NCBI RefSeq assembly: GCF_032854445.1
Contig: NC_088298.1
Coordinates: 8,915,504 to 8,979,503 of the forward strand
Origin: Liolophura sinensis
Lineage: Eukaryota > Mollusca > Polyplacophora > Chitonida > Chitonidae
Direction: 5' to 3'
DNA: 64,000 bases
Part shown: positions 21,421 to 46,785 of the stretch, one piece after another
Position numbering within the stretch: position 1 is the stretch's first letter
Layout of the letters: every line of letters begins with the position of its first letter
The notes under the pieces: model-generated
Databases searched by the model: none
What the model was told of the DNA's origin: nothing
What the model saw: only the letters and a program-made list of their open reading frames with translations
Position numbers and translations under genes: made by a program

Positions 21421-21540
21421 ATTTATTTATTTATTTATTTATTTGATTGGTGTTTGCCCTCAAGAATATTTCACTTATATGGCGGCATCCAGCATTATGG
21501 TGGGAAGAAACCAGATTCCTATGCACAAGTGAAGCCGGAG
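21421..21540 (-). mobile_element. tRNA-SINE-1, 3' fragment, reverse
   Basis: (ATTT)n then GATTGGTGTTTGCC and CAGCATTATGGTGGGAAG. It lies downstream of the last exon of gene B, possibly within or past its 3' UTR. Confidence 0.75.
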
Positions 21541-21809: not shown

Positions 21810-21977
21810 TTACTCATAAACAATCTGAAATCCAGTAATTGTCATTTTGCACAACGGACAACAGCCTGACATCTGTAATGATCTTGCACATTCTTTGCAA
21901 TACGAGTAATGGCCACATGGCAAGAACAATGTGTTTTTTCTGTGAGCTTTACAAACAGCGCACAAGAACTTTTCCAT
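21810..21977 (-). CDS. Gene B exon 18 (aa 734-788): C-terminal RING finger and stop
   Basis: Zinc ligands C739, C742, C754, H756, C760, C763, C773, C776 (C3HC4; C-x2-C-x11-C-x-H-x3-C-x2-C-x9-C-x2-C). LPCGHYSYCKECA and a short hydrophobic tail (ITGFQIVYE) follow the IAP/XIAP RING plan, where the tail helps dimerise and activate the E2. All eight ligands are present, so ligase activity is plausible. No clear minus-strand poly(A) signal was picked out below 21810. Confidence 0.92.
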   Translation of the reverse strand: MEKFLCAVCKAHRKNTLFLPCGHYSYCKECARSLQMSGCCPLCKMTITGFQIVYE

Positions 21978-24900
21978 CTGAAACAAAGAGAAAAGTTGAG
22001 AGGTGTAGGACAAGTTGAAGAAAAGAACAGTGGAGAGATTGGAGCCATATCACCTGCTTGATGACGGCATAATATCTGAGAAAAGGTCATGCTCACATTA
22101 ATGCCGCAAATACTTAGCAAATTGGTAGCAAATCAAGCATCATGACATCCTATTTAAAGACGCTTTTTGTGAAATGTACACTCAAGAGAACTGGCCCCAG
22201 TAGCACAATTGGCAGAGTGTCCGATTCGTGAGCGGTAGATCCAGGGTCAATCCTGGGTCGAGTCACACCTAATAGGACCTTAAAAGAGGAAGTTGTAACT
22301 TCCTCGCTTGGTGTTCAGCATGAAGGGTATAGTGCAACGACTGGTTGAACCGTATCAGTATAAAGGCTCGGGCGGGGCAGCTTACTTGCCTTCAGTAAGG
22401 CATCTCAGTGAAGCAGCACTAGATAAAAGAGCGGTGGAAATCCGTCCTGCAACAAGGAAGCACATTACACGTACATGCACTCTAAGGATTCCTTCGTCGT
22501 CATATGACTGAAAAATTCTACAAAAAAAGTATGACGTTAAACCCCAAGCACTCACTCACTCACATTCAAGGGAGATAACTATACACATACAATTTACTAA
22601 ACACATCCCATCACTTTCTGAATGCATTTATATTTTTTCTCTAATTCATTGTTTTCTGGTAATTGCACTCGAAAAGCACAACATTTTGTAAAGTATGATG
22701 TGGTCAATAAATGGCCAGAGGCAAGAATTAAGACAGCGAATACAAAAATGATTGGTACAATGTTTTCAGCTCAACCATAAAAGGATCATCAGACGGCAGG
22801 GAAGCAAGTGTTAATGCAGGTCGAATTAGTGACCAGTCAGTGCAGGGAGCATCTACTAATGACTTTAATATTTATTTGATTTAATTATTTGATTGGTGTT
22901 TTATGCTGTACTCAAGAATATTTCACTTGCACAACGGCGGCCAGCATTATGGTGGGAGTAAAGCGGGCAGAGCCATGAGGAAACCCACAACCATCTGTAT
23001 GTTGCTGGCAGACCTTCCCACTTACAGCTGTTGATTTTAATAGGATTGGAAGCACGCAATACCTGTAAAGGGTCTCCTTGGCAAAGTGGGTTAACACGCC
23101 AGAACAGCGCAATGACCCAGAAGCCTCCCAGCAATGAGGCTGCTGTTAGACAAAGTCCAGCTCATGCTGGCTTCCTTTCTCGTCAACCATATGTGAGAAG
23201 GTCTGCAGCAACTGTGGATGGTTGTGGGTTTCCTCTGGCCTCTGCCGGGTTTCCTCCCACCACAATGCTGGCCACCATCGCATAAGTGAAATATTCTTGA
23301 GTTCGGCATAAAATACCAATCAAATAAAAAAATTAATAAATAAACTAAATGTAATACCTGTAAATCCTGCAGAACTATGTCACAAATCCCTGCCAGCTTA
23401 CGACAACTGTCCTTGGTCATTTGCTCACCACTACTGGAACCGTCCGTGCAGATCTGTGACAGCAACTCTGTCCTACAAAGACCAACCAGAAGACAGATGT
23501 TAAGGTCACTCAACAAACCATTGAGCAAGTCACCATGGGAAACCTTACTTCTATAATATGAGACTTTATACCGCGTAGACAGCAAAACCAGAACAGCGAT
23601 GACAGTGTGACAGTTGTTGGCAAATGGTCGCATTTTACATCAGTCAGAATCTTAAAGTAACTGTTCATGTAAATGCTTAAACTGTAGTAAAAATTACACG
23701 CCCACCATGGCTTAATTAAAATTGTATAGAATTACTCCAAACGCTGTTCTGTCCCTACTGGGACACTAAAAATAAACTAAATCAATTTTGAGTTGACCTA
23801 TATTTGTTTTATAACCTGTAAAACGAGTCATAAATCCCATTTGCTGTACCAACCATTGAGGTTATTTGATTCATTTATTTATTTGATTGGTGTTTTACGC
23901 TGTACTCAAGAATATTTCACTTATACGACAATGGCCTGCATCATGGTACGAGGAAACCGGGCAAAGCCCGGGGGAAACCCACAACCATCTGCCTGGTTGC
24001 TGGCAGACCTTCCCACATAGGCCAGAGAAGAAGCCAATATCAGCTGGACTTTAACTCACAGCAACCACATTGGTGAGAGGCTCCTGGTTCATTATGCTGT
24101 GCTAGTGCGCTAACCAACTGTTCCATGGAGGCCCCTTGAGGATATCTGTGAAACTTCACAGAATCTGACACAGTTGTTGACATGTGACACCATCCATTGT
24201 ACATGTATATAATGGAACAGCACACTGTGACGGTGACACAGCACATAAATATGGCTGACACAGCACACTATTAAAGCTGACACAGCACACTATTAAAGTT
24301 GACACAGCACACTATTAAAGTTGACACAGCACCGTATCATGATGGCGCAGGAAACTATCATAATGGCACAGCACACAATCATCATGGCGTAGCAAACTTT
24401 CATAATGGCACAGCAAAATATTAAGGTGACACAGCACAACATGATGGCACAGCACGTTAATAAGGTGGAACAGCACACTATCATGCTAGGACAGCACACT
24501 ATCATGGCTACACAGGGAACTATCATGACGGCACAGTACACTAGTAAGGTGATTTAGCACACTATCAAAATGATGGCACAGCACACTAATAAGGTGACAT
24601 ACAGCGCACTATTTTGGTGGCACAGCACATTATCACGTGAGATAGCACACTCTTAAGGTGACACAGCACACTCTTAAGGTGACACAGTACACTATCAAGA
24701 TGACACAGTACACTGTCATTTATTGGACTGTGCACTGTCATTTATTGCACTGTACACTGCCATTTATTACACTGTAAACTGCCATTTATTGCACTGTACA
24801 CTGCCATTATTACACTGTCCACTGCCATTTTTATTACACTGTACACTGCCATTTATTACAATGCACACTGTCAAGATGAGACAGTAAATGATCACAACAC

Positions 24901-27900
24901 CCTATCGTAATGACAGCACAACGTATCACAACACACCACATAAAGACCTGATAATTTCTTCCCATCATGGTGACATAATGTCCTAACCTGTCTCGCAGTT
25001 TGTCCACATAATGACGCAGTTCCTCAACCAAATTTTCTTCTTTGCGATGAAAAACTTCAGCATCGCTGCTCATCTGGAAAAGAGTAAAACAAACAGACCA
25101 TGTTCACTTGTCAGATGATTCTTCCATTGAGTGCAAACATGCAAATAGATGGACAGACAAACCAATACTGAAACTTACAACTTCTACATTTTTTTCTTTA
25201 ATGTCAGGGGTTTTAAGGCCATTAACCTGATCACGCTGACATGGTATTCTGATCACGCTGATATGGCAAGCAGACATGGTATTCTGATCATGCTGACATG
25301 GTATTCTGATCATGCTGACATGGTATTCTGATCACACGGACATGCTATTGTGATCACGATGACATGGTATTCTGATCACGATGACATGGCATTCTGATCA
25401 TGCTGACATGGCATTCTGATCACGCTGACATGGTATTCTTATAACACTGACATGGTATTCTGATCATGATGACATGGTATTCTGATCACACGGACATGGT
25501 ATTCTGATCACGATGACATGGTATTCTGATCACGATGACATGGCATTCTGATCACGCTGACATGGCATTCTGATCACGCTGATATGGCATTCTGATCATG
25601 CTGACATGGTATTCTGATCATGATGACATGGTATTCTGATCACACGGACATGCTATTGTGATCACGATGACATGGTATTCTGATCACGATGACATGGCAT
25701 TCTGATCACGCTGACATGGCATTCTGATCATGCTGACATGGTATTCTTATAACACTGACATGGTATTCTGATCATGATGACATGGTATTCTGATCACACG
25801 GACATGGTATTCTGATCACGATGACATGGTATTCTGATCACACTGACATGGTATTCTGATCACGCTGATATGGTATTCTGATCACACGGACATGCTATTG
25901 TGATCACGATGACATGGTATTCTGATCATGCTGACATGGTATTCTGATCACGCTGATATGGCATTCTGATCATGCTGACATGGTATTCTGATCATGCTGA
26001 CATGGTATTCTGATCACACTGACATGGTATTCTGATCATGCTGACATGGTATTCTGATCATGCTGACATGGTATTCTGATCACACGGACATGCTATTATG
26101 ATCACGATGACATGGTATTCTGATCACGATGACATGGCATTCTGATCACGCTGACATGGCATTCTGATCACGCTGATATGGCATTCTGATCATGCTGACA
26201 TGGTATTCTGATCATGATGACATGGTATTCTGATCACACGGACATGCTATTGTGATCACGATGACATGGTATTCTGATCACGATGACATGGTATTCTGAT
26301 CACGATGACATGGCATTCTGATCATGCTGACATGGTATTCTTATAACACTAACATGGTATTCTGATCATGATGACATGGTATTCTGATCACACGGACATG
26401 GTATTCTGATCACGATGACATGGTATTCTGATCACGATGACATGGTATTCTGATCACGATGACATGGCATTCTGATCACGCTGACATGGCATTCTGATCA
26501 CGCTGATATGGCATTCTGATCATGCTGACATGGTATTCTGATCATGATGACATGGTATTCTGATCACACGGACATGCTATTGTGATCACGATGACATGGT
26601 ATTCTGATCACGATGACATGGCATTCTGATCACGCTGACATGGCATTCTGATCATGCTGACATGGTATTCTTATAACACTGACATGGTATTCTGATCATG
26701 ATGACATGGTATTCTGTATTCTGATCACGATGACATGGTATTCTGATCACGATGACATGGCATTCTGATCACGCTGACATGGCATTCTGATCACGCTGAT
26801 ATGGCATTCTGATCATGCTGACATGGTATTCTGATCATGATGACATGGTATTCTGATCACACGGACATGGTATTCTGATCACGATGACATGGTATTCTGA
26901 TCATGCTGACATGGTATTTGAAAGTTTGATTTGAAAATGCAAATATTTTGATCTCTAACTATCATATATGTAGACACAAAAGTATATCAGAGGTATTTTA
27001 TATGCAAACAGATATTGTCATAAACTAACAGCTGTTTTACCTGTTTACGAACTTTACAAAGCTGTTCATCTTTGAACTTCAGATCACTCCGTAACTCAAC
27101 AATGTCTGCTGTCAACTTTTTCAACTCTCTCTGGAAATTTTCCCAGTTTGCCTATAAAAATATAGACATAGATACGAATCCATCAATAGCAATGACAGCT
27201 TATTCTGGCTTCCTCTCCGGTTGTCACACATGTTTAAGTGAAAGAATCTTGAGTACAGCGTAAAACACCAATGGAGTAAATAAATAACATTTGGGAGGTA
27301 CCATGTTTGGTGGAAGCTGATGTCATGGCCTCGCTAATACACGTTTCGAGGTACGATATCTTACAACAGAGTGATGTCCCTTTGCAGCGTGACGATGTTG
27401 CCTTACAATTTAGCTTTTAATATGAGGCTGGCACCCTAATTCCTCAATCTTTTCCCATATAACAGATTAACTATCAGTGTAATTTATGCCAATTTTTGAT
27501 TCGATTTTGGAGACAAAACTACACTGGTTGGATTGGCCAGTTTCAGGGCTTCACAAAAATCAGTCAACACAGAAAAATGCCTTCAGGATATGCTTGAATA
27601 AACACCTTGCAAACATACGAAAAGTTTGAAGAATTACAGTGTGGAGAATCATGTTCTTGGGAGGGTTTGGGTGTCAATTATATGATGGCAGTCAGTACTG
27701 CATGAAAATAAAGATAAAAACAAGACTGTCCTTGTGATTAATATGCATGTAGATGTTTAGATGATATAAAAAAAACTACCTACAATTGTTTCAGGGAAAC
27801 TGGTGCAATACGTTAGCAGGAGTTGCATGGCTACCATCTGTGTACACGAAAGCCCATTATACACTTTAACACCTGAATGGCAGTAATCATGACAATAATA

Positions 27901-30900
27901 ACCCGATTTTAATTTACCTTAAGCATACACAGGTTTAGACAACAGGGAAGATATACAGTAATATAGTATAATAACAAACATGTGGGGAGATGGAAGCATA
28001 TGTCAGGGCAGAAACTGCACATTTCTACAAAAACAGAGTGATGTCCCTTGGCAATGCGATGTCGCCACTTTACTCCATGGGTCACTTTGTTCATTTTAAT
28101 ACGGGTTGGTGTATAGAACACAGAAGAGTGAAAAAAAATTAGTATTCAACAATAAATACAATCTGCCTGCAAGTTTGATTTCAGCATGAATGCAACTGTA
28201 CCATGATAAAACATAAGCGAGAAACTCTACCACCTTGTACAGGGACAAGATCAGCTTGCCCTGGAATGCCCATGTCCTTAATCCTAATGCCATACTGTTC
28301 TTATTTTCAGGGCAGGTATCAGTAATCTTTTCAGCTTAAAATTACATTACACTCCCATTTTTTTTTTTTTAATGTGAAAAAAACACATCACAACCTGTAC
28401 AGGCATATATTAATCCCCCAAAGGCTAAAGGTAGAAATAAAAGAAGGTCCCAAACAGTTTCTTACATTATTTTCATCCTTTGCCTGCTGAAGCTTATTTT
28501 CGCAATGACGTCTTATTTTCTCCTCGGCATCAACCAATGAAATCTCACGATTCATCATCTCTTTCTCCACTGACTCCAGTTTTTTGTGTACCTTTGTCAA
28601 TTTCATGCTGTTTTCAGTCATTTCCTTGTTTAGTGCTTTCTGTGCAAACAGAACGTGTGAAACATGAATACATAGAATATATGAATAAATCGAATATGTG
28701 AATACAAACTACGTGATACATCATTTGACAGAAATTGTGAATACAGCATAAGTGCTATACGAATATATATGTAGAATACTTGAATACTGAATCTGTGATA
28801 TATGAACTTACAGAATGTGTGATACATGACAAGACAGAATGGGTGTTTACCCCACGGGTGTGTACAGGTGGGTCTTCACTCCATGGAAGTGTACAGCTGG
28901 GTATTCATTCCATGAGTGTGTACAGGTGGGTGTGTACTCCATGGGTGTGTACAGGTGGGTGTGTACTCCATGGGTGTGTACAGGCAGGTGTTCACTCCAT
29001 GGGTGTTCACTCCATGGGTATGTACAGCTGGGTGTTCAAAAAAACACATCACAGCCTGTTATACAGGCATATATTAATCCCCCAAAGGCTAAAGGCAGTG
29101 TACAGGTGGGTGTTCACTTCACGGGTATGTACAGGTGGGTGTTCACTCGATGGGTATGTACAGGTGGGTGTTCATATCATGGGTGTGTACAACTGGGTGT
29201 TCATATCATGGGTGTGTACAACTGGGTGTTCACCCCATGGGTGTTTACAGCTGGGTGTTCATTTCATGGGTATGTACAGCTAGGTGTTCACTCCATGGGT
29301 GTGTATACCTGGGTGTTTACCCCATGGGTGTGTCCAGCTGGGTGCTCACCCCACAGATGTGTACACCTGGGTGTTCACTCCATGGGGTTCCCTTCATGGG
29401 TGTGTCCAACTGGGTGTTCACTTCATGATGTGTACAGCTGGGTGTCCACTTCGTGGGTGTGTACAGCTGGGTGTTCACTTCATGGGTGTGTACACCTGTG
29501 TGTTCACTCCATGGGTGTGTACAGTTGTGTGTTCACTCCATTGGTGTGTACAGCTGTGTGTAAACCCGATGGATAAGTACAGCTGGGTGTTCACTTCATG
29601 GGTGTGTACAGCTGGGTGCTCACTCCATGGGTGTGTACCTCTGGGTGTTCACTCCACACGTGTGTACAGCTGGGTGTTCACTCGATGGGTGTGTACAGTT
29701 GTCTGTTCACTTCATGGCTGTGTACAGCTGGGTATTCATTTCCAGGGTGTGTACAGCTGGGTGCTCACTTCATGGGTGTGTACAGCTGGGTGTTCACTCC
29801 ACACGTGTGTACAGCTGGGTGTTCACTCCATGGGTGTGTACAGTTGTGTGTTCACTTCAAGGGTGTGTACAGCTGGCTATTCATTTCCAGGGTGTGTACA
29901 GCTGTGTGTTCACTCCATGGGTGTGTACAGTTGTGTGTTCACTTCAAGGGTGTGTACAGCTGGGTATTCGTTTCCAGGGTGTGTACAGCTGTGTTTTCAC
30001 TCCATGGGTGTGTACAGCTGGGTGCTCACTTCATGGGTGTGTACACCTGGGTGTTCACTCCATGGGTGTGTACACCTGGGTGTTCACTCCATGGGTGTGT
30101 ACACCTGGGTGTTCTCTTCACGGGTGTGTGCCACTGGGTGTTCACTCCATGGGTGTGTACAGTTGTGTGTTCACTCCATGGGTGTGTACACCTGGGTGTT
30201 CCCTCCATGGGTGTGTTCACCTGGGTGTTCTCTTCACGGGTGCACCTCCTTTAATGACAAGATAAACCACCTCTGTGCCATTTTGTTCAAATACCCCACC
30301 TAGCTGGGATTTTGTTCACATTTTCTACCTCTAATTCTCTTATTTTGTTCTTACATCTACCTAACTGGGATTTCTGTCACATATCCTACTTTAGATTTTG
30401 TTCAGATATACTATCTCTAACTCTGTAATTTTGCTCAGATATCCTACCTCTAACTTTGTGATTTTGTTCACATATCCTACCTCTAACTCTGCGATTTTGT
30501 TCAAGTATTCCTTTTCTTTGTCTCGTAGTTCCGTGACCAGAGTGTCTACGCTTATGTGATCTTTCTCAGTTGTCAGGGGCCCAAAGTGAATCAAATCTCT
30601 ACAGAACCCTTCCATGGTACGATCACAACTCTGAAAACAAACAGAAATCACAGGAGTATTTTCAATTTCACCTGTCCCACAACAGATGATACAATCCCAT
30701 GCTTTTCGTGATGCCATCATGTGAAACTGTGAGGCTCTGAGTTTTGTTTCCCTAGTTAAGAGATACTGATCTTTTGAATTCTTTCGAGTGAATCACCAAT
30801 TCAGTTGCTAAATATCCTCTGATTGCTTTTTTTTCTACTTTCAACATGTATCTATGTCTGCATTTAATGTCTACTGTAAAACTGCAGTGTTTAATGGCAT

Positions 30901-36900: not shown

Positions 36901-39900
36901 GCGAACATCACGATATTTACTGTGTGGAGAATGGAAAATACAGTAAATGTTAACACATACATGTAGCCTCAGAAATGCATTTGTTTGAAATGATGATAGA
37001 TATGTGGTTACCATGACAACAACACAAATGGACAAATGTGTCCACCACAAACTAAAACTTTATGCGGAAAACAGTTGGAGTTGTAGCCCGGGCATGAAAT
37101 CATTTCTACTTTTATAGCATATATAACAAAAAATGGCTATCTATTTACTGTGAGAACCATGAAAATAGATAAATGTGAGTTATGACACATCATCATCTGT
37201 GTATCTGTAATGGTTGAAGGATTTTACTACGTGGGTCATACCAGGATTTGAACTCAGGTCTCAGCAGCTGAAGTTCAGCGCCCTACCAACTGAGCTAAAG
37301 AGAAATTCCAACTAGCTACTGTTAGTATAAGCACTGGAAAGCTGCTCAAGTTACATATCTATGTATCCACCAAAAATTAAAACTCTGCCTGTAAAAAAGT
37401 TGGAGTTGTAGCCCAGGTATGAAATCATATCTATTTATATAGTACATATAAGGGAAATGGCTATCTGGTTACCAGTATAAAAATTAAAACAATGTACATA
37501 CTCTTCAAGCAGTAAGTCGTAATATTTGGAGATCAACATGGGTTTCTGAGTGACCGACTTGATCCATATCCCACTCACCTGTAAATCGATTGACTGACTG
37601 ATATTTACTGACGTATAAACTGATTGGGGTTAAGATCATTCAATTATGTAACGCCGGTAAGATTTGTGTGTGGAGGAAATTAGAGTGTCTGGAATAAAGC
37701 CTAGCCCATCATCAGGTACCTGACAATATTTCCTGATTTACAAACAAAGCAGCAAGAGCTGGAGTTGAACCTGTGACTTCACTGGTATCTAGCTGCTATT
37801 ATAAATGCAGCTGTTATAAATAAATCAGCCGAACTGGTGAGAGCCTTGTTTGTAAAATACTTCCTCCCAGTTTATCCATGTGCTGGCTCATACATTTTCA
37901 GAATTTTTTGAACAGGGTAAAATCTGGTTTGAAACATTGAAATCTATCGTTCCTTAACCATACAAACACCAGTGGCATTACAAGTTTTCGCTACACATAC
38001 ATGTACAGTGTGCAGATGTCTCCACTAAAAGTGCCTGCGGATACACTGTTATGTATGCACACTAAACAGATCATGAAACAAAAATATGGATATGACGTCA
38101 TCAATACCTTCTTCTTCCCAACAGATCCACATAGAATCTGATGTTCTGAACACGTTAATTAAATTAATTAAAAAATAAAATAAACTGACATATTTTCTTG
38201 GAGAAAATCTGATAGTCTTTTATCTGACAAATACATGTTGCATTTAAAAGAAGCGACAATATTGGACCAAATGTACAAATGCATCTATAAAGTGTCACTA
38301 ATAAAAACTAAAAATTATCATTTTTTAAATTTTTTCTGCATGCTGAGAAAATCAAAAGCACTGGGTTAGCACGCCAGCACAGCGCAATGGCCCAAGAGCT
38401 CCTCACCAATGCAGACGAAGTGAGTTCAAGTCCAGCTCATGCTGGCTTCCTCTTTGGTCATACATGGGAAGGTCTGACAGCAACCTGCGGATGGTCGTTA
38501 GTTTCCCCCGGGCTCTGTCCTCTTTCCTCCCACCATAATGCTGGCCACAGTCGTATAAGTGAAATATTCTCAAGTTGGCGTGAATCATCAATCAAATAAA
38601 TAAATATGTGAACATGTCTTGCCTACAACTAGACGGGTATGTGTTTTAGACAAATTTAGAATTGATCGCAAAAACTAGCCCATATGAAACATGTAAGGTG
38701 TCTCACATTTGACCTAGCAACCAATAGGCTGATCAACCAATCAATCCACTGACCAACCAACCAATCAATGACAGAGCTGCCAATCTCAGTTACAGATCTA
38801 AATTCACCTACAACCTTTACCAGATGGTCGATTTCACTTGGTCGAGGAACAGCGTTCCTGTCACGATCCACCTGTAGAGATGCAAAATCCACGCCAGCAG
38901 CCAAGTCCTCTCCACGCAGGTCACTTACCCACACCCCTTTGACGTACAACTGACCTGACAGGTGATCATCAAGTAACAGAGTTCCTGGAAAAATCAGGTA
39001 CCGTGAATCAGTGCATGTACATCTATGCATGTCTGTCTGTATGTATGTATGTCTGTTTGTATGTATGCATGTCCATCTATGTATGTATGTCTGTATGTGT
39101 GCGTGTATGTATGTGAGTATGTATGCATGTCCGTATGTATGCATGTCCGTATGTATGTATGTCTGTATGCATGTCCGTCTGTATGTTTTTATGTCTGTCT
39201 GTCTGTATGTATGTATGTATGTATGTATTCTAGGGTTTTACGTTATTAAATTAGTCATTTCATGCATGCTGAATCAGTGGAAAAGCATAAACATAGTCCC
39301 TGAAAACAGGTATGATGAATCAGTGTAAAGGCAACAGCATCCCTGGAAAAATCAGATGTAATCAATCAGTGTAAAGGCAACAGCGTCCCTGGAAAAATGT
39401 AGTGAATCAGTGTATAAAGGCAATAAAGTCAACAGCACCATGGAAAATCAGATGCAGTGAACCAGTGTAAAGGCAACAGCACCCATGGAAAATCAGATGC
39501 AGTGTATGAAGGCAACAAAGTCCATGGAAAAAATCAGATGTAGTGAATCAGTGTAAAGGCAACAGCATTCATGGAAAAATCAGACGTGCTGGATCAGTGG
39601 AAAGTCCCTGAAAACAGGTATGCTGTATCAGTGTAAAGGCAACAGAGTTCCTGGAAAAATTAAATGAATTGAATCAGTGTAAATGGAACAGCATCCATGG
39701 AAAATTCAGATGTAGTGAATCAGTGTAAAGGCAAAAGGCAACAGCATCCATGGAAAATTCAGATGTAGTGAATCAGTGTAAAGGGAACAGCATCCATGAA
39801 AAATTCAGATGTAGTGAATCAGTGTAAAGGGAACAGCATCCATGGAAAATTCAGATGTAGTGAATCAGTGTAAAGGGAACAGCATCCATGGAAAATTCAG

Positions 39901-42900
39901 ATGTAGTGAATCGGTGTAAAGGGAACAGCATCCATGGAAAATTCAGATGTAGTGAATCAGTGTAAAGGGAACAGCATCCATGGAAAAATTAGATGCAGTC
40001 AATCAGTGTAAGGATTCTTGTAAATGCTGAGATACGTTCGAATTTGATCCCAAAGGAATTAAGTTTTAGACTTAAATGCAGAGATGTGGCTTCAGGATCA
40101 CAAAGCGATCTTAGACTTAAGGCGAAATTTCAAATCACATTAAAATTGTTGCTTCGTATGTTACAAGGTCAAAATTTTGCAGATATTCTGGGAATGTTTT
40201 AGTATAACTAAGTTTCAGCTAAAATAACAAAAAGAACATAAAATTTAATGCCTGAAGTTATTACTTCAGTCTGAGATCGCTTCGTTATCTCGGGGCCCGA
40301 TGTTATTAAAATAAAAAGTATCCTAACCTAGCTCTGTCTTCACGCTATCTTTAGACGGTTGTAAAAATAAAAACCTTGGCAACTGAAACAGAAAAGAGTG
40401 CTTATTAATTAACTTATTTGATTGGGGTTAATTTTAGTTATATATAGAAGAATATTGAATGTTGGAGTGTTGAGTTTTGAAGGTCGAGGAAATGTTCTAC
40501 AGCCGTAAGTCAGAACAAACTCAATCAAAGGACGCACACACATGAAAAGCTTGGTCTTTTTCTTAATATGCAGTTTAGGATGTGGCCTCGCAATCAAAAG
40601 TACAAAACAGTCTGTCAGATTCTTCTTAAGGGCAAAAAGATGGCTTTACACTATAGCTTTTTAAAAGCCCCGGCAGTCAGCCTAGATATTACGTAGGCTG
40701 CTGTGGTGATGGTGCCATTAAGAAACATAAAATATGCCTCAAAAATGAAACAATTTTTCTCATATTTTTTTTTTATTTTCCTTTCAACCACACTTTTCAT
40801 TTTACAATACCATTTCACATACATGTGTTCTTCAAATGGATCCAAAACTTACATCCGCAGATTACCATGTACTGCGTCTCAATCTTCCATCATACATTGT
40901 TTGTCAGATATCTGGCAAAGGGCGTATTTGTCTACCTAAGGCAGTTCCGTTTCCTCCGCCCACATAGCCATGAACAACGCCCTTATCACCATCTGGCTAG
41001 TCTTACATGAAGTTCACTGGCACTAACTTTCTCCATCAGCAATATCATGTGCACATTATTCTTGCTCTATTTATTTTATGTATTTGATTAGTGCTTTATG
41101 CCACACTCAAAAATATTTGACTTTATATGACGGGGTTCAGCATGATGGTGGGAGGAAACCAGGCAGAGCCCGGGTGGGAATCCAAGACCTCCCGCAGGTT
41201 GCTGGCAGGCCTTCCCACATATGGCCGCAGAGGAAACAAGCATGAGCAGGACTTGAACTCAAAACGACCACACTGATGAGAGGCTCCTAGGCAATTGCGC
41301 CTCGCTGGAATGCTAACCACCTGGGTCACTCGGGCCCCACCATCAACTACTGTTCTTATAATTTAAATGATAAAGTTCTTGAGTGCAGTGTTAAACACCT
41401 AGCAAATGATACAGTTCTTGCGGGCAGTGTCAAACACTTAGCAAATGATACAACTGAGTGCAGTGTTAAACACTTTGCAAGTGATAAAGTTCTTGAGTGC
41501 AATGTTAAACACTTAGCAAATGATACAGTTCTTGAGTGCAATGTTAAACACTTAGCAAATGATACAGTTCTTGAGTGCAATGTTAAACACTTAGCAAATG
41601 GTACAGTTCTTGAGTGCAATGTTAAACACTTAGCAAATGATACAGTTCTTGAGTGCAATGCTGAACACTTAGCAAATACATAAACATTCAACCACTCTGA
41701 GGTATTGCTTAGAGTATAGACCAAGTTTAAATTGAATACGATGAAGAAGAAAAAGTGGACAAAACATTCATAATTTGGTCCAAAATCAAAAAGAAGGCCA
41801 TAAACCTGTATTGTGATGAGCTGACTGATGAGGTGCAAACCCACTGACTATTTTCGTAATACATAGGTTACTGCCTTTTTCAACGAACTACCTCCTTTGG
41901 CAGTAGTTATCAGTTCAACTATCCAATGCTGTTAGCATTTGGAAGTACCAGTGTGATGGAATTTAAACAGCCATTTGCTTCAGTGCATTGGGGAAATGAA
42001 GAAGTAAACAGCAATATTTCACAAAATCTTTTGTCAAGGGAGGTAATACTGCATTCGGTAGCACGCCTATGCGTCATATTTTCAAGTTCTCGATTCGCAA
42101 ATACAACAGCTAGAAAGTTATCTGAACCATCCAGTTTGTGACCTTCACCTTGGGCAGTTTAGCAGACGTCTGTAGGACAGAAGCACCTCACTGCCTGTAG
42201 GACAGAAGCAACTCACTGCCTGTAGGACAGAAGCAACTCACTGTCTGCAGGACAGAAGCAACTCACTGCCTGTAGGACAGAAGCAACTCACTGCCTGTAG
42301 GACAGAAGCAACTCACTGGCTGCAGGACAGAAGTACCAACTGCCTGCGCAATCAACATCTTATTTCGCAGGCATGACTGCTGAAACTGTCCGAATGATTC
42401 CGCCTCTTTCCTTTGACCAAATTCATGACACAAATGGTGTTCACAAGGAGTACCAGACATAGCATTATGCCTTGACAAGGGAAGTAACCTGTGTGTTATT
42501 AAAAACCTGAATGGTCAAAGACAAACATGCATATGTATTACCCATCCCCATCCTTAGTCAAAGAGGATTAATCAACCATACATCAAATATACTGCATGCT
42601 GGCTTCCTCTCCGGCCGTAAGTGGGAAGGTCTGCCAGCAGCCTGCGGATGGTCGTGGGTTTCCCCCGGGCTGTGCCCGGTTTCCACCCACCATAATGCTG
42701 GCCGCCGTCGTATAATTGAAACATTCTTGAGTACGGCGTAAAACACCAATCAAAATAAAGAAATCAAAATCAAATATACTGTAATTCTTCAACCTTTTCA
42801 CATGTTTGCAGTGTGTTTAACACATTGTTCAACACACTGTGAAGGCATTATTTTGTGTAGGGTGTTAAAATTATTCTTTTTTGTGAAGCCCTGAAATTCG

Positions 42901-45900
42901 CCATTCCAACCAATATGATTTTGTCTTTAGTGACAAATTAAAGATGTGCACAAATTGCACTGAAAGTTGCTCTTTCATATGCGAAAAAGTTGAGGAATTA
43001 ATATCAGTCTGGCTGTATGACTCACAAAAATCTTCCACTCTTCACTCGTGATATTTGTCACAGAGGTGCAGGTGTCCGTGTCCTCCAGTTTAACAGGACT
43101 GTGAAAAACGGGAAAAAATAACAGTCACATTCGGCATGACCTCTAAGCCTTGACCTTGACCTGTGTCACCTAAAGTTTGGTATGTAACACTTCCATTAGC
43201 ACAAACAGGCAAAACAAGGATGCTTTTGATGCTAACACTTATGCTTTTCTTATCAGACATTAATCAAACTTCACATACAACTCTTGCAGTGGCCCTGAAA
43301 GGTGAGTGAATCAGTGTGTGATTTTAAGAGTGTGTCATTTGGAAGACATCTGGAAAAGTTAACCCCCTTCTGAACACACCCACATAAGACAATTGTCTAC
43401 CCATTTTACAAATTGACGCCACTCAAGATTGAGCCCAGGACTGGTCAATCATGTTCAAGTCTGACACTTACCAAACCGGAAAGACATCGTTTGACAATCC
43501 AGCCGCGCTGACGGAATTACCTGACACATTTCTGTCTGCAATTTAAAAAAAGGTGTATAAAATGCTTAAACAACCAAATAAAAATAAAAAATAGAAACTT
43601 TTAAATGACATCTTTCAACAACAAGCATTAATGAATGATGTATGTTAAACGTTAGATGTATAAAGTCATTGGAATCTCAAGTCAATGACTGACTTGATTA
43701 TCATTCCATAACTGAAATATTCTCGAATACAGCCCTGTAAAACACATCTGAAGTAAATATATGACCTAAAAAATATTTAAAAAGTGTACAAGTGTTTTAA
43801 CAATGTACCTTGGCACCTCTGAACACATCTTCAGCTTGGTTCACATGTAGGTTATATGTAAAATATGTAGGTAATATGTAAAAACTCAAATTAATTATAC
43901 ATGTATATTATTTTTCTTTTGTTTTGTTTTTTTGTTTCTTTATTCAAAACATACGTGATTGTGGTCAGGATTTTGAGTAAAGAAAGTTACAGCTCTTTCT
44001 TTGAGTAAAGAAAGTTACGATGGAGCACTGGTGAAAAGTCAACCATCTGCAGCAGGACTGATGCCATGAACATTTGAACCAGTGGAGTAGCGGGCACAAA
44101 ATCTACTCACAATACATTATTCCATCTTAATAGTTTACGATAAACGCAATTTTTTGCAAGAAAAATACTTGTTCATCTCCTTTTTCATAACACAGAAATT
44201 ACAATATTACCTGAGACAATCACTGTCAATACTTTTTCTCCAAATTCTTCATTCAGCACCAAATCAAAGCGCCATCTGTCTGAACTGGTTTCCATGGTGA
44301 CAGGCCTTCCATCTCTGACCAATGACAAAGCTCCTACCTTCAGACCTTCTCCAAACTGACCAATCACCTCTCGTTTCTCAGTTTTAGCACTGTAGCCCAT
44401 CAGCAGAATTCTTTTGTGAAGTGAGGTAGATTTGTTAATGAGAGTAAGTCGGCTATTTAAATGGTCAAATATTAAAACACCAAGAATAACTTTGGACTGG
44501 TCGGCTGGATTGAGAACAAAAGCTTTAAATTCATCCTTCAGTCTCGGGTCAGACGTCTGCAACAGAAGAGCAAAGTTTACAACCATTTAATATATACCGA
44601 AAAACTCAAATAAATTCAAAATTTATTTATTTGTTTTACACTGTGCACAAGAATATTTCACTTAAACGACAGTGGTCAGCATTATGGTGGGTTGAAACCG
44701 GGCAGAGCCTGGGGAAAACCCACAACCATCCCCAGGTTGCTGGCAGACCTTTTCACTTACAGCCTTAGAGGAAATCAGCATGAGCTGGACTCAAACTGCA
44801 TTGGTGAGAGGCTCCTGGGTCATTTCAATATATACAGAAAAACTCAAATAAATGCAGAAAAGTTGGGTTACAAATATTAAAAGCCTGAAAAACAACAGAC
44901 TATCTCACAAACAGAAATGCACTTGCGCTTGTTCATCATACACACAACTGAAAACTATGCGTAAAATAACTGAATTTATTTTTTCGTAATGTTCAAAGGT
45001 ATTCAAATATTTGAATACTTTGATGGGCTTTATGAGCCATATTGACAGTATCTGGGAACTCTGACATCACACCCCTTTTTTTCCTGATCTTCACCAAAAG
45101 GAGGGAATTTTTGGAAACATTATTTCAGTAATGTTTGACTCATGGGTAAAAAGAATTATTCCAAAACTCAGTGTCATGATTAGCGTTGGAAAAACTATCT
45201 GTGATGTCCAACTTTCTACAAGTTGACAGACGATGATGCTGTTCATGAAGGAAAAGACCTCTAAATATCGAAGAAGGCATCTCTAAGTAGAACACTTATA
45301 GCTATGCATAATATACTTTCATTTAGTTTTTTCCATTTTTGTGAACAGGCACGAGTTAAAGGCGCTCAAATATTTGACTTGTAAGGTGGGCTTTATGGAC
45401 CATGCTATCAGAGGTTAGAAGCTCTGAAGTCACAGGAAGTTTATCCAACTCTAAATCACGACACTGAGTGTTGGAATAACTCTGTTTACCAATAAGTCAA
45501 AGATTACCGCTGCTATAATTTTCCCTGAAATTCCTTCCATGTGGTGAACGACAGGAAAAAAGGTGATGCGACATGAAGAGTTCCTCGATATAGTTTTCAA
45601 ATATTTTAATGCCTTTCAACACTCTCAAAAAAATCTAAAAATAAATGAAAGTATTTTTATGCATAGTTTTCAACTGTGATGAACCCTACATTATATTTTA
45701 ACTCACCGTAGAATTCAACCGTTTGAATGCCTAACTCATTTCACAATAATCTAACAAAAATAAAAATCAAATTAAAACTTTGCATACATTGCACTCAAAG
45801 TTGTTCTTTCATACACCAAAAGGTTAAGGAATTAAAGTAGTGAAAAATGGAGGGGGGTCGTTGAGTTCAAACTCTTCTATCGCTAAAGGTAAAAAAAAAT

Positions 45901-46785
45901 CCTACTGTGTCATGTGACCAGTCAAAAAAGTTCAGCAACAAATGCGGGATCACCTTTACTATGACAAGGGCTTCTGAAAAAAGTTTCTCCAAAAGTTATT
46001 TGGAGTGACAATCGATAGAGATAATGGAGGAACTTTTATGAACTAGAGAATTTTCTAAATGAAAGAGGTGTCATCTTTGTTTCTGGAACACGGTGAGACA
46101 AGTGATCAATACTTTAATGTCTACAAAGGTTGCCTGACATTTTTCACAAGTCAGTTGATAGAAGAGGACATTTTAATCTTCAATGACAAAAGAGTTCGAA
46201 CTCGAAACTCTTATGTTCTTTCCACTATTGTGCTGCACAAATCAATGTAAAAAGAACTGAAAAAATGTCATATGGTACAACTGGGCAAATAGTACATATG
46301 TAGGCCCCCTTTCTTCTTTGGGTTTTCTCATCACTCAGATGGAGGCAAATAAGGTTTTGAAGATCAATTGTCTTTATTACAAGCCTGAAAACTAGATAAG
46401 GCTACACTAGCATTTACTGTTGTTTCACTGCAGAATAAATCTTTTATCAATATCAGAGTAAGGTATAATCAATTATTTGTCAATTTATTTCATCAGAGTT
46501 TTACGCTGTACACAAGAATATTTCACATATATGCCGTAATATACATGTAAGTAAAAAAATTATTGAATATGGCCTTTAACACCAAATTAAATAAATAAAT
46601 ATTTTAAGGCAAACCTTTTCGAAGTGAACTTGCAAAGGCACTGAAGAGACAATGTCAAGACTATCAGCCATTTCATACAGCCCATCATGCCAGTTCTGTA
46701 CAAGTTCACGTATACCCTCCCAGGCGCCCCAGGTTGAGGCATACCTCGATGTCAAGGTCAATGGAATGTGTCGAATGTCAGCCAT
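21810..46785 (-). CDS. Gene B: Hsp90-like GHKL ATPase - coiled coil - RING finger protein, 18 coding exons, 788 aa
   Basis: The 18 coding exons (listed separately) total 2367 bases, every junction phase fits and the only stop is the last codon. N-terminus: RELVQNWHDGL (aa 26-36) matches the Hsp90-type N box, with E27 and N31 at the catalytic and Mg-binding places. IGQFGEGLK (122-130) is the G2/lid glycine motif. A segment LYVKGVWVSDL...DRDR (249-279) may be the transducer. The middle, to about aa 550, is unrecognised. Aa 552-695 are Glu/Lys/Leu-rich and predicted coiled coil. Aa 739-776 form a C3HC4 RING of IAP type at the extreme C-terminus. Family knowledge: GHKL domains dimerise on ATP binding and such RINGs recruit E2 enzymes. 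Inference: an ATP-switched ubiquitin ligase, probably cytosolic or nuclear (no signal peptide or TM). It might be a paralogue of uncharacterised invertebrate proteins; I cannot name it. Confidence 0.85.
22192..22563 (+). mobile_element. tRNA-SINE-2, full length, antisense in the last intron of gene B
   Basis: Matches the copy at 2879-3242 over its whole length with scattered differences (CCAGTAGCACAATTGGCAG head, CGTCGTCATATGACTG near the end, CACT tail). The flanks ACACTCAAGAGA and ACATTCAAGGGAGA look like a diverged target-site duplication. Confidence 0.88.
22862..23028 (-). mobile_element. tRNA-SINE-1, 3' half, reverse
   Basis: GATTGGTGTTTTATGCTGTAC through GACCTTCCCACTTACAGC; the head is missing. 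It lies about 40 bases from the opposite-facing copy at 23070, so the two could fold as an inverted pair in the gene B transcript. Confidence 0.8.
23070..23352 (+). mobile_element. tRNA-SINE-1, full length, inserted at the exon 17 donor of gene B
   Basis: Head GGTCTCCTTGGCAAAGTGGG to tail AAATACCAATCAAATAAA. A perfect 12-base target-site duplication AATACCTGTAAA lies at 23058-23069 and 23353-23364. The second copy contains the exon 17/intron junction at 23357/23358, so the insertion copied the splice donor. Confidence 0.9.
23358..23472 (-). CDS. Gene B exon 17 (aa 696-733): linker before the RING
   Basis: 115 bases, phase 2 to 0: TELLSQICTDGSSSGEQMTK through ICDIVLQDLQ. Its donor TTTACAG/GTATTA is duplicated on the far side of an adjacent SINE (23070-23352). 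Confidence 0.8.
23868..24136 (-). mobile_element. tRNA-SINE-1, near full length, reverse
   Basis: Tail TTGATTGGTGTTTTACGCTG to head TTCCATGGAGGCCCC. The flanks TTGAGGTTAT and TTGAGGATAT look like an imperfect target-site duplication. In the intron between exons 16 and 17 of gene B. Confidence 0.87.
24230..24870 (-). repeat. Two adjoining degenerate minisatellites, about 20-24 bp
   Basis: First block: variants of GACACAGCACACTATTAAAG. From about 24710: variants of CACTGTACACTGCCATTTAT. Both share the ACTGT/ACACT core, so the second may derive from the first. Much older than the array at 25.2 kb. Confidence 0.75.
24988..25073 (-). CDS. Gene B exon 16 (aa 667-695): end of the coiled coil
   Basis: 86 bases, phase 0 to 2: MSSDAEVFHRKEENLVEELR then HYVDKLRD. 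The split last codon is completed as Arg by exon 17. Confidence 0.8.
25230..26918 (-). repeat. 22-bp minisatellite, about 77 units, with higher-order pattern
   Basis: Unit GATGACATGGTATTCTGATC + AC. Marked variants (CTTATAACACTGACATGG; ACACGGACATGCTATTGTG) recur about every 308-330 bases, showing that blocks of 14-15 units were copied together. It fills the intron between exons 15 and 16 of gene B. Confidence 0.92.
27041..27151 (-). CDS. Gene B exon 15 (aa 630-666): coiled coil
   Basis: 111 bases, phase 0 to 0: ANWENFQRELKKLTADIVEL and on to LCKVRKQ. It continues the heptads of exon 14. Confidence 0.8.
27195..27290 (+). mobile_element. tRNA-SINE-1 fragment, internally deleted
   Basis: CTGGCTTCCTCTCCGGTTG joined directly to AAGTGAAAGAATCTTGAGTA and the AAATAAATA tail; the middle body is missing. 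Confidence 0.65.
27436..27641. mobile_element. TIR-A element
   Basis: Begins CCTAATTCCTCAATCTTTTC and ends AAAAGTTTGAAGAATTACAG. The interior matches the 13.4-kb copy (CAGGGCTTCACAAAAA, CTTGAATAAACACCTTGCAA). Between exons 14 and 15 of gene B. Confidence 0.65.
28377..28433. repeat. 57-bp segment duplicated inside the 29-bp array
   Basis: AAACACATCACAACCTGTAC through CCCAAAGGCTAAAGG recurs at 29037-29098 with two or three changes. This copy lies just past the exon 14 donor in unique sequence and is probably the source. Confidence 0.8.
28466..28639 (-). CDS. Gene B exon 14 (aa 572-629): coiled coil
   Basis: 174 bases, phase 0 to 0. KALNKEMTENSMKLTKVHKK through LQQAKDENN is highly charged with hydrophobic residues every three to four positions and no proline, typical of a long parallel coiled coil. 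Confidence 0.83.
28850..30245 (+). repeat. 29-bp minisatellite, about 46 units, interrupted once
   Basis: Unit GTGTGTACAGCTGGGTGTTC + ACTCCATGG. Since 29 is not a multiple of three and the unit lacks stops, all plus frames are open; the long Trp/Cys-rich ORFs are artefacts. Interrupted at 29037-29098 by the copied 57-bp segment. Confidence 0.93.
30299..30513 (-). repeat. Short 27-33-bp array built from the exon 13 donor junction
   Basis: On the minus strand the units read ACAAAATC-CAGAGTTAGAG/GTAGGATAT. Junction-like points lie at 30481 (the real donor), 30448, 30415, about 30388, 30361, 30329 and 30300. The first two spacings are exactly 33 bases. The 30415 copy has AT in place of GT. Confidence 0.8.
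30481..30630 (-). CDS. Gene B exon 13 (aa 522-571): start of the coiled coil
   Basis: 150 bases, phase 0 to 0, from SCDRTMEGFCRDLIHFG to EKEYLNKIAELE. Heptad-like leucine/isoleucine spacing begins near aa 552. Its donor GAG/GTAGGA is copied in tandem downstream; use of the first copy (exon end at 30448) would add 11 residues in frame. Confidence 0.82.
31328..31492 (-). CDS. Gene B exon 12 (aa 467-521)
   Basis: 165 bases, phase 0 to 0. The in-phase frame reads CQCREAWICCAVLELRGDKV and ends SPIQPIVALLAME. It has four Cys within ten residues, which might bind metal, but no His/Cys partner set is seen. A longer open frame here is out of phase with both neighbours and is not used. Confidence 0.78.
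31600..31939 (-). repeat. 22-bp minisatellite split by a SINE
   Basis: Unit GCCTCACTGCAGAGACTGTA + CA, about 15 units, degenerate at both ends. Related but poorer units continue at 32236-32450 on the far side of the SINE. Confidence 0.85.
31952..32223 (-). mobile_element. tRNA-SINE-1, full length, reverse, inside a minisatellite
   Basis: Tail (ATTT)n-GATTGGTGTTTTACGCCG to head ACTGAGCCACCGAGGCCCC. Perfect 12-base target-site duplication GCTCTTCAGCAG at 31940-31951 and 32224-32235. The array existed before the insertion. Confidence 0.93.
32891..32975. mobile_element. TIR-C end fragment
   Basis: GAGTTCTGAGATCAAACTCT through TCATGCAGCCTGTCACAAAA matches the left end of the 45.9-kb element; the rest is lost. 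Confidence 0.5.
32976..33060 (+). mobile_element. tRNA-SINE-1 3' fragment
   Basis: TTTCCTCCAACCATAATGCT to AACACCAATCAAATAAAAAA, abutting the TIR-C fragment. Confidence 0.7.
33066..33256. mobile_element. TIR-B miniature inverted-repeat element
   Basis: Left end AATCTTCAACCTTTTCAACC and right end AAAAGGTTGAAGAATTAGTG are inverted copies. The interior (CAGTTCTCTCAGGATGTTTC) is shared with 47083-47288 but not with TIR-A, although the termini of the two families agree. Confidence 0.7.
33430..33725. repeat. Dispersed repeat R1 with internally repeated unit
   Basis: Contains GACAAATGTGAGTCATGACA, CACCAAAAATGAAAACTCT and GGAGTTATAGCCAGGACACG, the last motif occurring twice. Relatives are at 36965-37490 and 51650-52350. 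Confidence 0.65.
33740..33785. repeat. GGAC microsatellite
   Basis: Short run of GGACGGACGGACGGATGGAT type tetranucleotides. Confidence 0.85.
33965..34455 (-). repeat. 23-bp minisatellite, about 21 units
   Basis: Unit AATGTTAGCCCACTGGTCAT + CAC, low divergence. It ends 96 bases from the exon 11 donor of gene B. Confidence 0.92.
34551..34781 (-). CDS. Gene B exon 11 (aa 390-466)
   Basis: 231 bases, phase 0 to 0, from VVLCNQTFLNILSHSG to VDVAHTPDYE. It contains LSPEKQNVLRHATKLIQM, predicted helical. No domain recognised; it may form the substrate- or dimer-contact middle region. Confidence 0.83.
35291..35840 (-). repeat. 50-bp minisatellite, 11 nearly identical units
   Basis: Unit AAGCACATGTAGTTCCTGAC + TCACATGTACATGTAAGCCTTACATGGATA. 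Units differ almost only at one site (CACATGT or CACTTGT), in the order T-A-A-A-T-A-A-A-T-A-T. Each has the 12-base palindrome ACATGTACATGT. Confidence 0.95.
36172..36256 (-). CDS. Gene B exon 10 (aa 362-389)
   Basis: 85 bases, phase 2 to 0: KYGKEAIPVANSVSMETLQE then IRRELSTK. Confidence 0.75.
36360..36690 (-). repeat. 39-bp minisatellite, about 8 units
   Basis: Unit CATGAAACAGCACTGACTTT + AACACATCATCGTATTACA. In the intron between exons 9 and 10 of gene B. Confidence 0.9.
36839..36919 (-). CDS. Gene B exon 9 (aa 335-361)
   Basis: 81 bases, phase 2 to 2: KYRDVRHAGQYMIGTNVPQL then ISEQFV. Donor GTGAT/GTAAGT. Confidence 0.78.
36965..37490. repeat. Dispersed repeat R1, second locus, interrupted
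   Basis: Two units (GGAGTTGTAGCCCGGGCATG and GGAGTTGTAGCCCAGGTATG) separated by a tRNA-like segment at about 37210-37350. Next to exon 8 of gene B. Confidence 0.65.
37215..37312 (-). mobile_element. tRNA-derived segment (pseudo-tRNA or SINE head)
   Basis: The minus strand has CTTTAGCTCAGTTGGTAGGG and GAGTTCAAATCCTGG, good A and B boxes. The acceptor stem cannot pair and the T-arm is imperfect, so this is not a working tRNA gene. It differs from SINE families 1 and 2. Confidence 0.55.
37502..37578 (-). CDS. Gene B exon 8 (aa 309-334)
   Basis: 77 bases, phase 0 to 2: VSGIWIKSVTQKPMLISKYY then DLLLE. Predicted helix-rich, no named domain. Confidence 0.75.
38108..38145 (-). CDS. Gene B exon 7 (aa 296-308)
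   Basis: Micro-exon of 38 bases, phase 1 to 0: EHQILCGSVGKKK. It is needed to bring exon 6 (phase 1 out) into frame with exon 8 (phase 0 in), which is the main support for it. Confidence 0.65.
38360..38608 (+). mobile_element. tRNA-SINE-1, slightly 5'-truncated
   Basis: GGGTTAGCACGCCAGCACAG to CATCAATCAAATAAATAAAT, with a body close to the consensus. Between exons 6 and 7 of gene B, antisense to it. Confidence 0.85.
38808..38984 (-). CDS. Gene B exon 6 (aa 237-295): transducer-like segment
   Basis: 177 bases, phase 1 to 1. Encodes TLLLDDHLSGQLYVKGVWVS and, later, LQVDRDRNAVPRPSEI. A beta strand then a basic DRDR loop after a GHKL core suggests the S5-fold transducer of these ATPases (inference). 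Its acceptor TTTTTCCAG is also the seed of the 46-bp array upstream of it. Confidence 0.82.
39020..39236. repeat. TATG/TCTG tetranucleotide microsatellite
   Basis: Mixed ATGTATGTATGTCTGTATGC runs. It lies between the exon 6 acceptor and the 46-bp array and appears to have expanded inside one unit of that array. Confidence 0.9.
39240..40020 (-). repeat. 46-bp minisatellite related to the exon 6 acceptor
   Basis: Unit GTGAATCAGTGTAAAGGGAA + CAGCATCCATGGAAAATTCAGATGTA, about 16 units. Early units keep TCCCTGGAAAAATCAG or AGAGTTCCTGGAAAAAT, the same bases as the exon 6 acceptor junction at 38975-39009. Confidence 0.88.
40328..40382 (-). CDS. Gene B exon 5 (aa 219-236)
   Basis: 55 bases, phase 0 to 1, acceptor TTTTCTGTTTCAG, donor GCTAG/GTTAGG. 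Encodes LPRFLFLQPSKDSVKTEL. Too short to find by ORF length; supported by phase on both sides. Confidence 0.72.
41066..41340 (-). mobile_element. tRNA-SINE-1, full length, reverse, diverged
   Basis: TGTATTTGATTAGTGCTTTA to GGGTCACTCGGGCCCC. Between exons 4 and 5 of gene B. Confidence 0.85.
41365..41685 (-). repeat. 39-bp minisatellite, about 8 units
   Basis: Unit TTCTTGAGTGCAATGTTAAA + CACTTAGCAAATGATACAG. 'TTCTTGAGTGCAGTGTTAAACACC' resembles the SINE-1 tail (TTCTTGAGTACGGCGTAAAACACC), so the array may have grown from a SINE tail. Confidence 0.88.
42150..42340 (-). repeat. 25-bp minisatellite, about 7-8 units
   Basis: Unit TGCCTGTAGGACAGAAGCAA + CTCAC. In the same intron as the 39-bp array, unrelated to it. 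Confidence 0.9.
42594..42768 (+). mobile_element. tRNA-SINE-1, 5'-truncated
   Basis: CATGCTGGCTTCCTCTCCGG to AAACACCAATCAAAATAAAG. Close to the 18.8-kb reference in the body; head absent. Confidence 0.85.
42781..43001. mobile_element. TIR-A element next to gene B exon 4
   Basis: Left GTAATTCTTCAACCTTTTCA and right CGAAAAAGTTGAGGAATTAA are inverted copies of about 22 bases. The interior matches 62514-62714 (GAAGCCCTG, GCATTATT). It ends 24 bases from the exon 4 donor. Confidence 0.75.
43026..43098 (-). CDS. Gene B exon 4 (aa 195-218)
   Basis: 73 bases, phase 2 to 0. Encodes PVKLEDTDTCTSVTNITSEE followed by WKIF. The donor ATTTTT/GTGAGT is only 24 bases from a TIR-A element at 42781-43001. 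Confidence 0.75.
43472..43535 (-). CDS. Gene B exon 3 (aa 173-194)
   Basis: 64 bases, phase 1 to 2. Encodes DRNVSGNSVSAAGLSNDVFPV, low in structure, probably a loop between the ATPase core and the next strand. Donor GTTTG/GTAAGT. Confidence 0.75.
44211..44556 (-). CDS. Gene B exon 2 (aa 58-172): nucleotide-binding core
   Basis: 346 bases, phase 0 to 1, acceptor CTTCTGTTGCAG, donor CTCAG/GTAATA. It carries LTLINKSTSLHKRILLMGYS, the place of the Hsp90 DTGIGM motif, and VIGQFGEGLKVGALSLVRDG, the lid glycines. The usual G1 Asp is Asn (N98) here. It ends in beta-strand-like sequence (RWRFDLVLNEEF). Confidence 0.88.
44621..44825 (-). mobile_element. tRNA-SINE-1, head-truncated, reverse
   Basis: ATTTATTTGTTTTACACTGTG to TGAGAGGCTCCTGGGTCATT. 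Between exons 1 and 2 of gene B. Confidence 0.82.
45863..46203. mobile_element. TIR-C fold-back element, best copy
   Basis: Left GAGTTCAAACTCTTCTATCG and right end CAATGACAAAAGAGTTCGAA + CTC are inverted copies over about 32 bases. The inverted similarity continues inward with gaps (GTGACCAGTCAAAAAAG against CTTGTGAAAAATGTC). 341 bases, no ORF of note. Confidence 0.65.
46487..46602. mobile_element. Pieces of two tRNA-SINE-1 tails, opposite orientation
   Basis: Reverse piece TTTTACGCTGTACACAAGAA and forward piece ATGGCCTTTAACACCAAATT with AAATAAATA. The second ends 12 bases before the exon 1 donor of gene B. Confidence 0.5.
46615..46785 (-). CDS. Gene B exon 1 (aa 1-57): N box of the GHKL ATPase
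   Basis: Starts MADIRHIPLTLTSRY and contains WEGIRELVQNWHDGLYEM. RELxxNxxDxL is the same spacing as Hsp90 RELISNSSDAL, so E27 would be the general base and N31 the metal ligand. Ends at GAAAAG/GTTTGC in phase 0. Confidence 0.85.

Follow-up and report, generated by a model that had tools for sequence, protein, structure and literature searches.

A chiton gene predicted to join a clamp of a phage protein family to an IAP-type RING finger

The window analysed here, a stretch of 64,000 nucleotides (nt) from the chiton Liolophura sinensis (assembly GCF_032854445.1, contig NC_088298.1, positions 8,915,504 to 8,979,503 of the forward strand), carries on its minus strand a predicted gene whose product combines an N-terminal clamp of the GHKL ATPase type, a second domain resembling zinc proteases, a coiled coil, and a C-terminal RING finger of the kind found in IAP proteins. 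In a manual rebuild from the minus strand, verified by script, the gene runs from 46785 to 21810 (window coordinates) in 18 exons, with GT-AG introns throughout and consistent phases. It opens with an ATG at 46785, closes with a TAA at 21812-21810, and encodes 787 amino acids ending in IVYE, while AATAAA is found 3' of the stop at 21443, 21435 and 21427. This independent rebuild reproduced the 18 exons and consistent splice phases of the original prediction, recovered both of its N-terminal motifs (RELVQNWHDGL and IGQFGEGLK), and upheld its order of GHKL domain, coiled coil and IAP-type RING; the gene itself stands, and the 788 amino acids first proposed become 787. The exons are listed below in the order of transcription, with independent E-values (i-E) from searches of the raw reading frames with profiles of the relatives described further on.

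46615..46785, minus strand: exon 1 (amino acids 1-57), start codon and N-box RELVQNWHDG; raw-frame profile match, i-E 2.2e-10
44211..44556, minus strand: exon 2 (amino acids 58-172), degenerate G1 box (N98) and lid motif IGQFGEGLK; raw-frame i-E 2.7e-23
43472..43535, minus strand: exon 3, from the gene-model rebuild
43026..43098, minus strand: exon 4, from the gene-model rebuild
40328..40382, minus strand: exon 5 (LPRFLFLQPSK), from the rebuild; aligns with the phage family
38821..38984, minus strand: exon 6 (amino acids 237-291), GQLYVKG and DRDR, the clamp part after the nucleotide pocket; raw-frame i-E 2e-10
37502..37578, minus strand: exon 7, from the gene-model rebuild
36839..36919, minus strand: exon 8, from the gene-model rebuild
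36172..36256, minus strand: exon 9 (KYGKEAIPVANS), resembles the phage stretch around HGxxAVPV
34551..34781, minus strand: exon 10 (amino acids 373-449), precedes the zincin-like domain; weak raw-frame i-E of 0.04; aligns with the phage family
31328..31492, minus strand: exon 11 (amino acids 450-504), zincin-like domain, with RKYSH (486-490) in place of HExxH
30481..30630, minus strand: exon 12, where the phage-like part ends and the heptad region begins
28466..28639, minus strand: exon 13, coiled coil
27041..27151, minus strand: exon 14, coiled coil
25179..25226, minus strand: exon 15 (48 nt), the weakest exon, its acceptor bordering a 22-nt minisatellite
24988..25073, minus strand: exon 16, coiled coil
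23358..23472, minus strand: exon 17, linker and helix preceding the RING
21810..21977, minus strand: exon 18 (amino acids 733-787 and stop), the terminal exon, which by itself holds the complete IAP-type C3HC4 RING

Profiles made from the relatives only, with the gene itself left out, picked up the same locus in the window's raw six-frame translation. The profile of the group carrying the zinc-protease motif HExxH matched exons 1, 2, 6 and 10, in order and on the minus strand, and a second relatives-only profile matched exons 1, 2 and 6, whereas the reversed window, which served as control, gave no match with an i-E below 1 to either profile. These ordered matches, set against an empty control, argue that the gene signal did not arise by chance. 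A tblastn search of the window for paralogues returned none besides the gene's own exons, with one extra row at E 1.1.

By sequence comparison, the N-terminal half of the protein is very probably a member of a phage protein family. The animal protein matched PHROG 6077, a group of phage proteins of unknown function, at E 1.8e-34, and the better of the two matching stretches spans profile positions 43-324 of 366. When a profile of 51 relatives was compared with the animal protein by hhalign, residues 4-491 were aligned (probability 100, E 9.2e-49), so that the alignment covers nearly the whole phage protein. Within these residues the PHROG 6077 proteins and the animal protein have in common the N-box, the lid motif, and GxLYVKG-like, RDR and AVPV-like stretches; the RING pattern, in contrast, occurs in 0 of 101 relatives. 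With the first 388 residues as a tblastn query (E up to 1), matches were obtained in 96 of 50,697 phage records (best E 3e-17), 50 of which had one place covering at least 80% of the query, and in 4 of 72,556 plasmid records. That the N-terminal half represents a phage family might suggest that phage or bacterial DNA had contaminated the assembly, but 17 introns split both the phage-like and the other parts, and minisatellites and dispersed repeats lie within the gene, leaving contamination a negligible probability.

The relatives were collected by degenerate-pattern scans, which gave 138 of them in 229 candidate stretches of viral contigs (80 kept) and 14 in 81 stretches of prokaryote genome contigs. 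The hhalign profile (alignment A2) was drawn from 51 of the resulting 94 loci (80 viral and 14 prokaryote), alignment A3 comprised 22, and motifs were counted in 91 of 101 relatives, with L006, L007, L099, L100, L101 and five exact duplicates left out. In the 80 viral loci the relatives are single open reading frames (ORFs) of 343-508 amino acids. Ten neighbouring ORFs picked in eight top viral loci all matched PHROGs at E up to 1e-3, including a DnaB-like helicase, a primase and head proteins, and on this ground the loci look like phages. No gene neighbour was conserved around the relatives, the commonest neighbour family being present in 8 of 94 loci. Single records annotate one relative as a histidine kinase-like ATPase or RIIA lysis inhibitor. 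As side observations, a PHROG 850 'RNA-binding protein' adjoins a phage relative (L009:963-2726, minus strand), and in the Alkaliphilus and Aneurinibacillus plasmid proteins L006 and L007 a related GHKL module is repeated in tandem, with the Asp present in its G1 boxes, and an HExxH-type motif lies near the C-terminus.

The nucleotide pocket of the clamp is conserved in some motifs and altered in others. The N-box E-x3-N-x2-D (E27, N31 and D34 in the animal) is the same in all 91 counted relatives; the glycines and Glu of the lid motif GxxGEG are likewise invariant (91/91) and kept in the animal as GQFGEGLK, the neighbouring Phe and Lys are found in 88 of 91, and the RDR motif of exon 6 is present in every one of the 91. 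The G1 box DxGxG, on the other hand, is degenerate in the animal, where it reads NKSTS at 98-102, and the position of its adenine-reading Asp is occupied in the 91 relatives by Asn (62), Ser (25), Thr (3) or Asp (1); the five relatives named above as left out of the count all carry the Asp. Foldseek comparisons of the predicted structure of a phage relative revealed a Bergerat fold, Hsp90/TRAP1-like over model residues 4-246, with MORC4 among the matches (7.5e-6). Judged by this model, the family fold is Bergerat, and the fold check proposed with the original prediction thus turned out positive on a phage relative.

These findings bear on what kind of GHKL protein this is. An Hsp90-like chaperone domain of eukaryotic descent, in which binding of adenosine triphosphate (ATP) would lead to dimerisation and switch the RING on as an ATP-gated E3 ubiquitin ligase, would fit the Hsp90/TRAP1-like fold of the phage model and the presence of an IAP-type RING; however, Pfam detected neither HATPase nor HSP90 in the animal protein at E up to 1, the C-terminus is a RING, the best match of the clamp part in the Pfam, PHROG, phage and plasmid searches is the phage family, and the pocket Asp has become Asn, which makes this reading improbable. 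Six relatives were scanned with Pfam as well, and the one that passed was L090, which has the G1 Asp (HATPase_c_3, 30.8 bits vs a cut-off of 25). Of the Hsp90-like GHKL ATPase originally proposed, then, the GHKL part holds and the Hsp90 family gives way to PHROG 6077, while an ATP-gated E3 is possible, but the motifs give no indication of it. Yeast Hsp90 with the corresponding mutation, D79N, no longer binds nucleotide, and cells that depend on the mutant are inviable (PMC10148809). Since the replaced residue is the one whose change abolishes nucleotide binding there, an ATP gate is unproven. With Asn or Ser at the position by which GHKL enzymes recognise adenine, members of the family may use another nucleotide in place of ATP.

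A serious rival to any such gate is a dead or nucleotide-independent clamp scaffold, which would dimerise constitutively or never, leaving the coiled coil alone to pair the RINGs. Asn98 in place of the adenine-reading Asp, Ser in place of the G1 glycines, the spread of residues at the Asp position among the relatives, and the yeast D79N result are all in its favour. Yet the hydrolysis-type Glu, the metal-type Asn, the N-box Asp and GxxGEG show no variation among the 91 counted relatives and are retained in the animal, whereas drift would be expected in a dead pocket; we regard the scaffold as less likely than not.

The GHKL part is followed by a second, zincin-like domain, which the original prediction had overlooked and whose active-site motif is degenerate in the animal. 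Wss1/SprT-like zinc proteases have HExxH, whereas the animal protein reads RKYSH at 486-490, with R486 and K487 in the first two positions and H490 as the one motif residue left. HExxH is kept in 21 of the 91 counted relatives, among them those nearest to the animal protein, and it is altered also in the phage relative L025, of which L028 is a near-identical copy. By predicted fold, the closest phage relatives combine a GHKL clamp with a Wss1-like zinc protease domain; for the C-terminal domain of the phage model, Foldseek found no match at E up to 0.001 (the best being abylysin, 0.12), and the Wss1 match came from a second structure comparison.

Beyond the phage-like part, heptad-like stretches extend over about residues 540-695, with Gly/Pro at 652 and 656, in agreement with the heptads earlier placed at about 552-695; ATG17_like, PDDEXK_6 and other weak Pfam matches in this region were below cut-off and were set aside. 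The C3HC4 zinc ligands of the RING are complete at 738-775, which bears out the complete RING announced at 739-776, and Pfam places zf-C3HC4_3 (PF13920) over 735-781 (E 1.5e-12, 47.5 bits vs a cut-off of 27) as the sole domain above cut-off in a scan of the whole protein. A PDB sequence search gave cIAP2, cIAP1 and XIAP as the closest solved structures to the RING, and the GHKL part was invisible to both the Pfam and the PDB searches with the whole protein. IAP proteins (BIRC2/3, XIAP) resemble the animal protein in their C-terminal RING and differ in their BIR domain, which Pfam did not find in the animal protein at E up to 1. Clam IAPs are reported to have the RING in one terminal exon and to have undergone shuffling of the RING exon (PMC7831173), and the addition of a terminal RING exon by shuffling would fit these reports.

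Phage homology stops at about residue 491, exon 18 opens with an ATG just past its acceptor, and the last intron contains an AATAAA, as would be expected if two adjacent genes were present, a phage-derived one ending around exons 11-12 and a separate coiled-coil/RING gene. The two parts nevertheless lie on the same strand, the 17 GT-AG junctions are consistent in phase, and the frame stays open to exon 18; moreover, the last intron (1,380 nt) is near the mean intron length of 1,330 nt, and a lone RING gene of 55 amino acids would be unusual. We consider it highly likely that one transcript runs across the predicted gene, and two separate genes improbable.

Parts of this layout recur in known systems. 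Phage T4 rIIA, which has been placed among poorly understood counter-defence functions, also has an N-terminal GHKL domain and a variable C-terminal part (PMC7824862); unlike the animal protein, it keeps the Asp of its G1 box. A direct relationship with T4 rIIA was set aside, its alignment to the family being weak (probability 29, 77 columns); no RIIA PHROG was among the 13 PHROG matches listed for the animal protein (E up to 10), and T4 rIIA itself matches PHROG 612 and others. MORC ATPases share the GHKL domain and coiled coil (PMC8627505), but have a CW zinc finger, which Pfam (E up to 1) did not find in the animal protein. Sacsin likewise holds Hsp90-like modules in a large animal protein (PMC3710099); the NCBIfam profile of its N-terminus matched weakly (E 0.015, 15.7 bits vs a cut-off of 50, residues 1-291 scanned), and its ubiquitin-like, DnaJ and HEPN domains were not found by Pfam in the animal protein. 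The titles and abstract openings listed by searches of one open-licence library named no GHKL-RING fusion and no phage GHKL gene in an animal, and to that extent the statement that no named family has this order is supported; the gene may already have been deposited as an uncharacterised invertebrate protein.

The descent of the clamp part was addressed with two trees, made up of the animal protein and the relatives collected as above. In a quick tree of 92 rows the animal protein fell into a set of 25 (21 with HExxH, three without, and itself) at a support of 96 by the Shimodaira-Hasegawa-like approximate likelihood ratio test (SH-aLRT), and the tree program warned that the long branches of the animal protein and L090 meet. 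A careful tree kept 67 rows after a further 25 had been dropped, near-copies and the long rows L090 and L076; here the animal protein grouped at 100/99 with 20 HExxH rows and at 96/90 with 19 of these, its highest identity being 33% over 342 columns. The set's three rows without HExxH (L025, L028 and L076) were among those dropped, and the clean HExxH split comes partly from this choice of rows. The careful-tree placement supports descent from a phage or from a gene-carrying prokaryote, and we consider such an origin of the clamp part probable. We infer the direction and age of the transfer, which would be old, since the phage-like part has ten introns. Loss of the zincin motif and the long branch might point to a pseudogene, the decaying relic of a transferred gene, but the frame is open across 18 exons and both the RING ligands and the invariant clamp residues are kept, so that we hold this very unlikely.

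GHKL domains dimerise upon nucleotide binding, and IAP-type RINGs act as dimers. We propose that the gene encodes a captured phage-family protein with a ubiquitin-ligase tip, a reading that embraces anatomy, origin and ligase work, whether or not a gate exists, which overlaps with the scaffold described above and to which we assign a probability of about 60%. The gene would have been acquired from a phage or a phage-carrying prokaryote, introns would then have accumulated in it, and the terminal RING exon would have been gained through exon shuffling. Clamp and coiled coil would form a dimer; the clamp, together with the dead protease domain, would hold a client and shut on it when nucleotide is bound, and clamp closure would pair two RINGs into an active E3, by which the client would be ubiquitylated, not cut. 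A nucleotide-gated ligase of this kind we put forward tentatively, at somewhat less than even odds. As the most economical account we infer that phage relatives pass clients to a protease and the animal protein passes them to the ubiquitin system. A fuller version is rather doubtful, namely that a captured clamp-protease lost its site and gained a RING, with tagging replacing proteolysis, to serve perhaps as an immune or quality-control sensor using a nucleotide that is maybe not ATP.

Several observations weigh against the proposed capture and ligase function. The replacement of the G1 Asp by Asn, and of the G1 glycines by Ser, argues against ordinary ATP binding. The AATAAA at 22876, the single one in the last intron, would allow an early end, and exons 12-18 are joined to the rest, as read from the DNA, by splice sites and phases alone. 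The animal branch is long (1.76) and its exact placement is unsure, and L088 and L090, two of the 21 relatives with HExxH, stem from contigs of prokaryote genomes, so that the donor may equally well have been a bacterium or a phage.

Other features were noted in the window. The introns of the gene hold many unrelated minisatellites (25113-41716; periods of 22, 29, 23, 50, 37, 46 and 39 nt), the 22-nt array adjoining exon 15. Four related dispersed repeats of 166 nt, at 22897, 23891, 31979 and 44632, three of them sharing 75-83% identity with the reference copy, are what we take to be short interspersed element (SINE)-like sequences. The region 3999-8004 is repetitive, with several frames open and Cys-rich stop-free stretches of up to 1307 amino acids, and is probably non-coding. 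An ORF at 60225-60551 (plus strand) resembles the C16orf87/UPF0547 protein and had no match in Pfam; in a Pfam scan of four window ORFs outside the gene, none matched at E up to 0.01.

The gene connects the uncharacterised phage family PHROG 6077 with animal biology and, if the proposed reading is true, would show directly how an animal has domesticated a phage-type machine and linked it to the ubiquitin system. It also offers a testable role for the phage proteins themselves, as a clamp that would deliver its clients to a protease of the Wss1-like kind, and prompts one to ask which nucleotide, if any, fits a GHKL pocket lacking the Asp.
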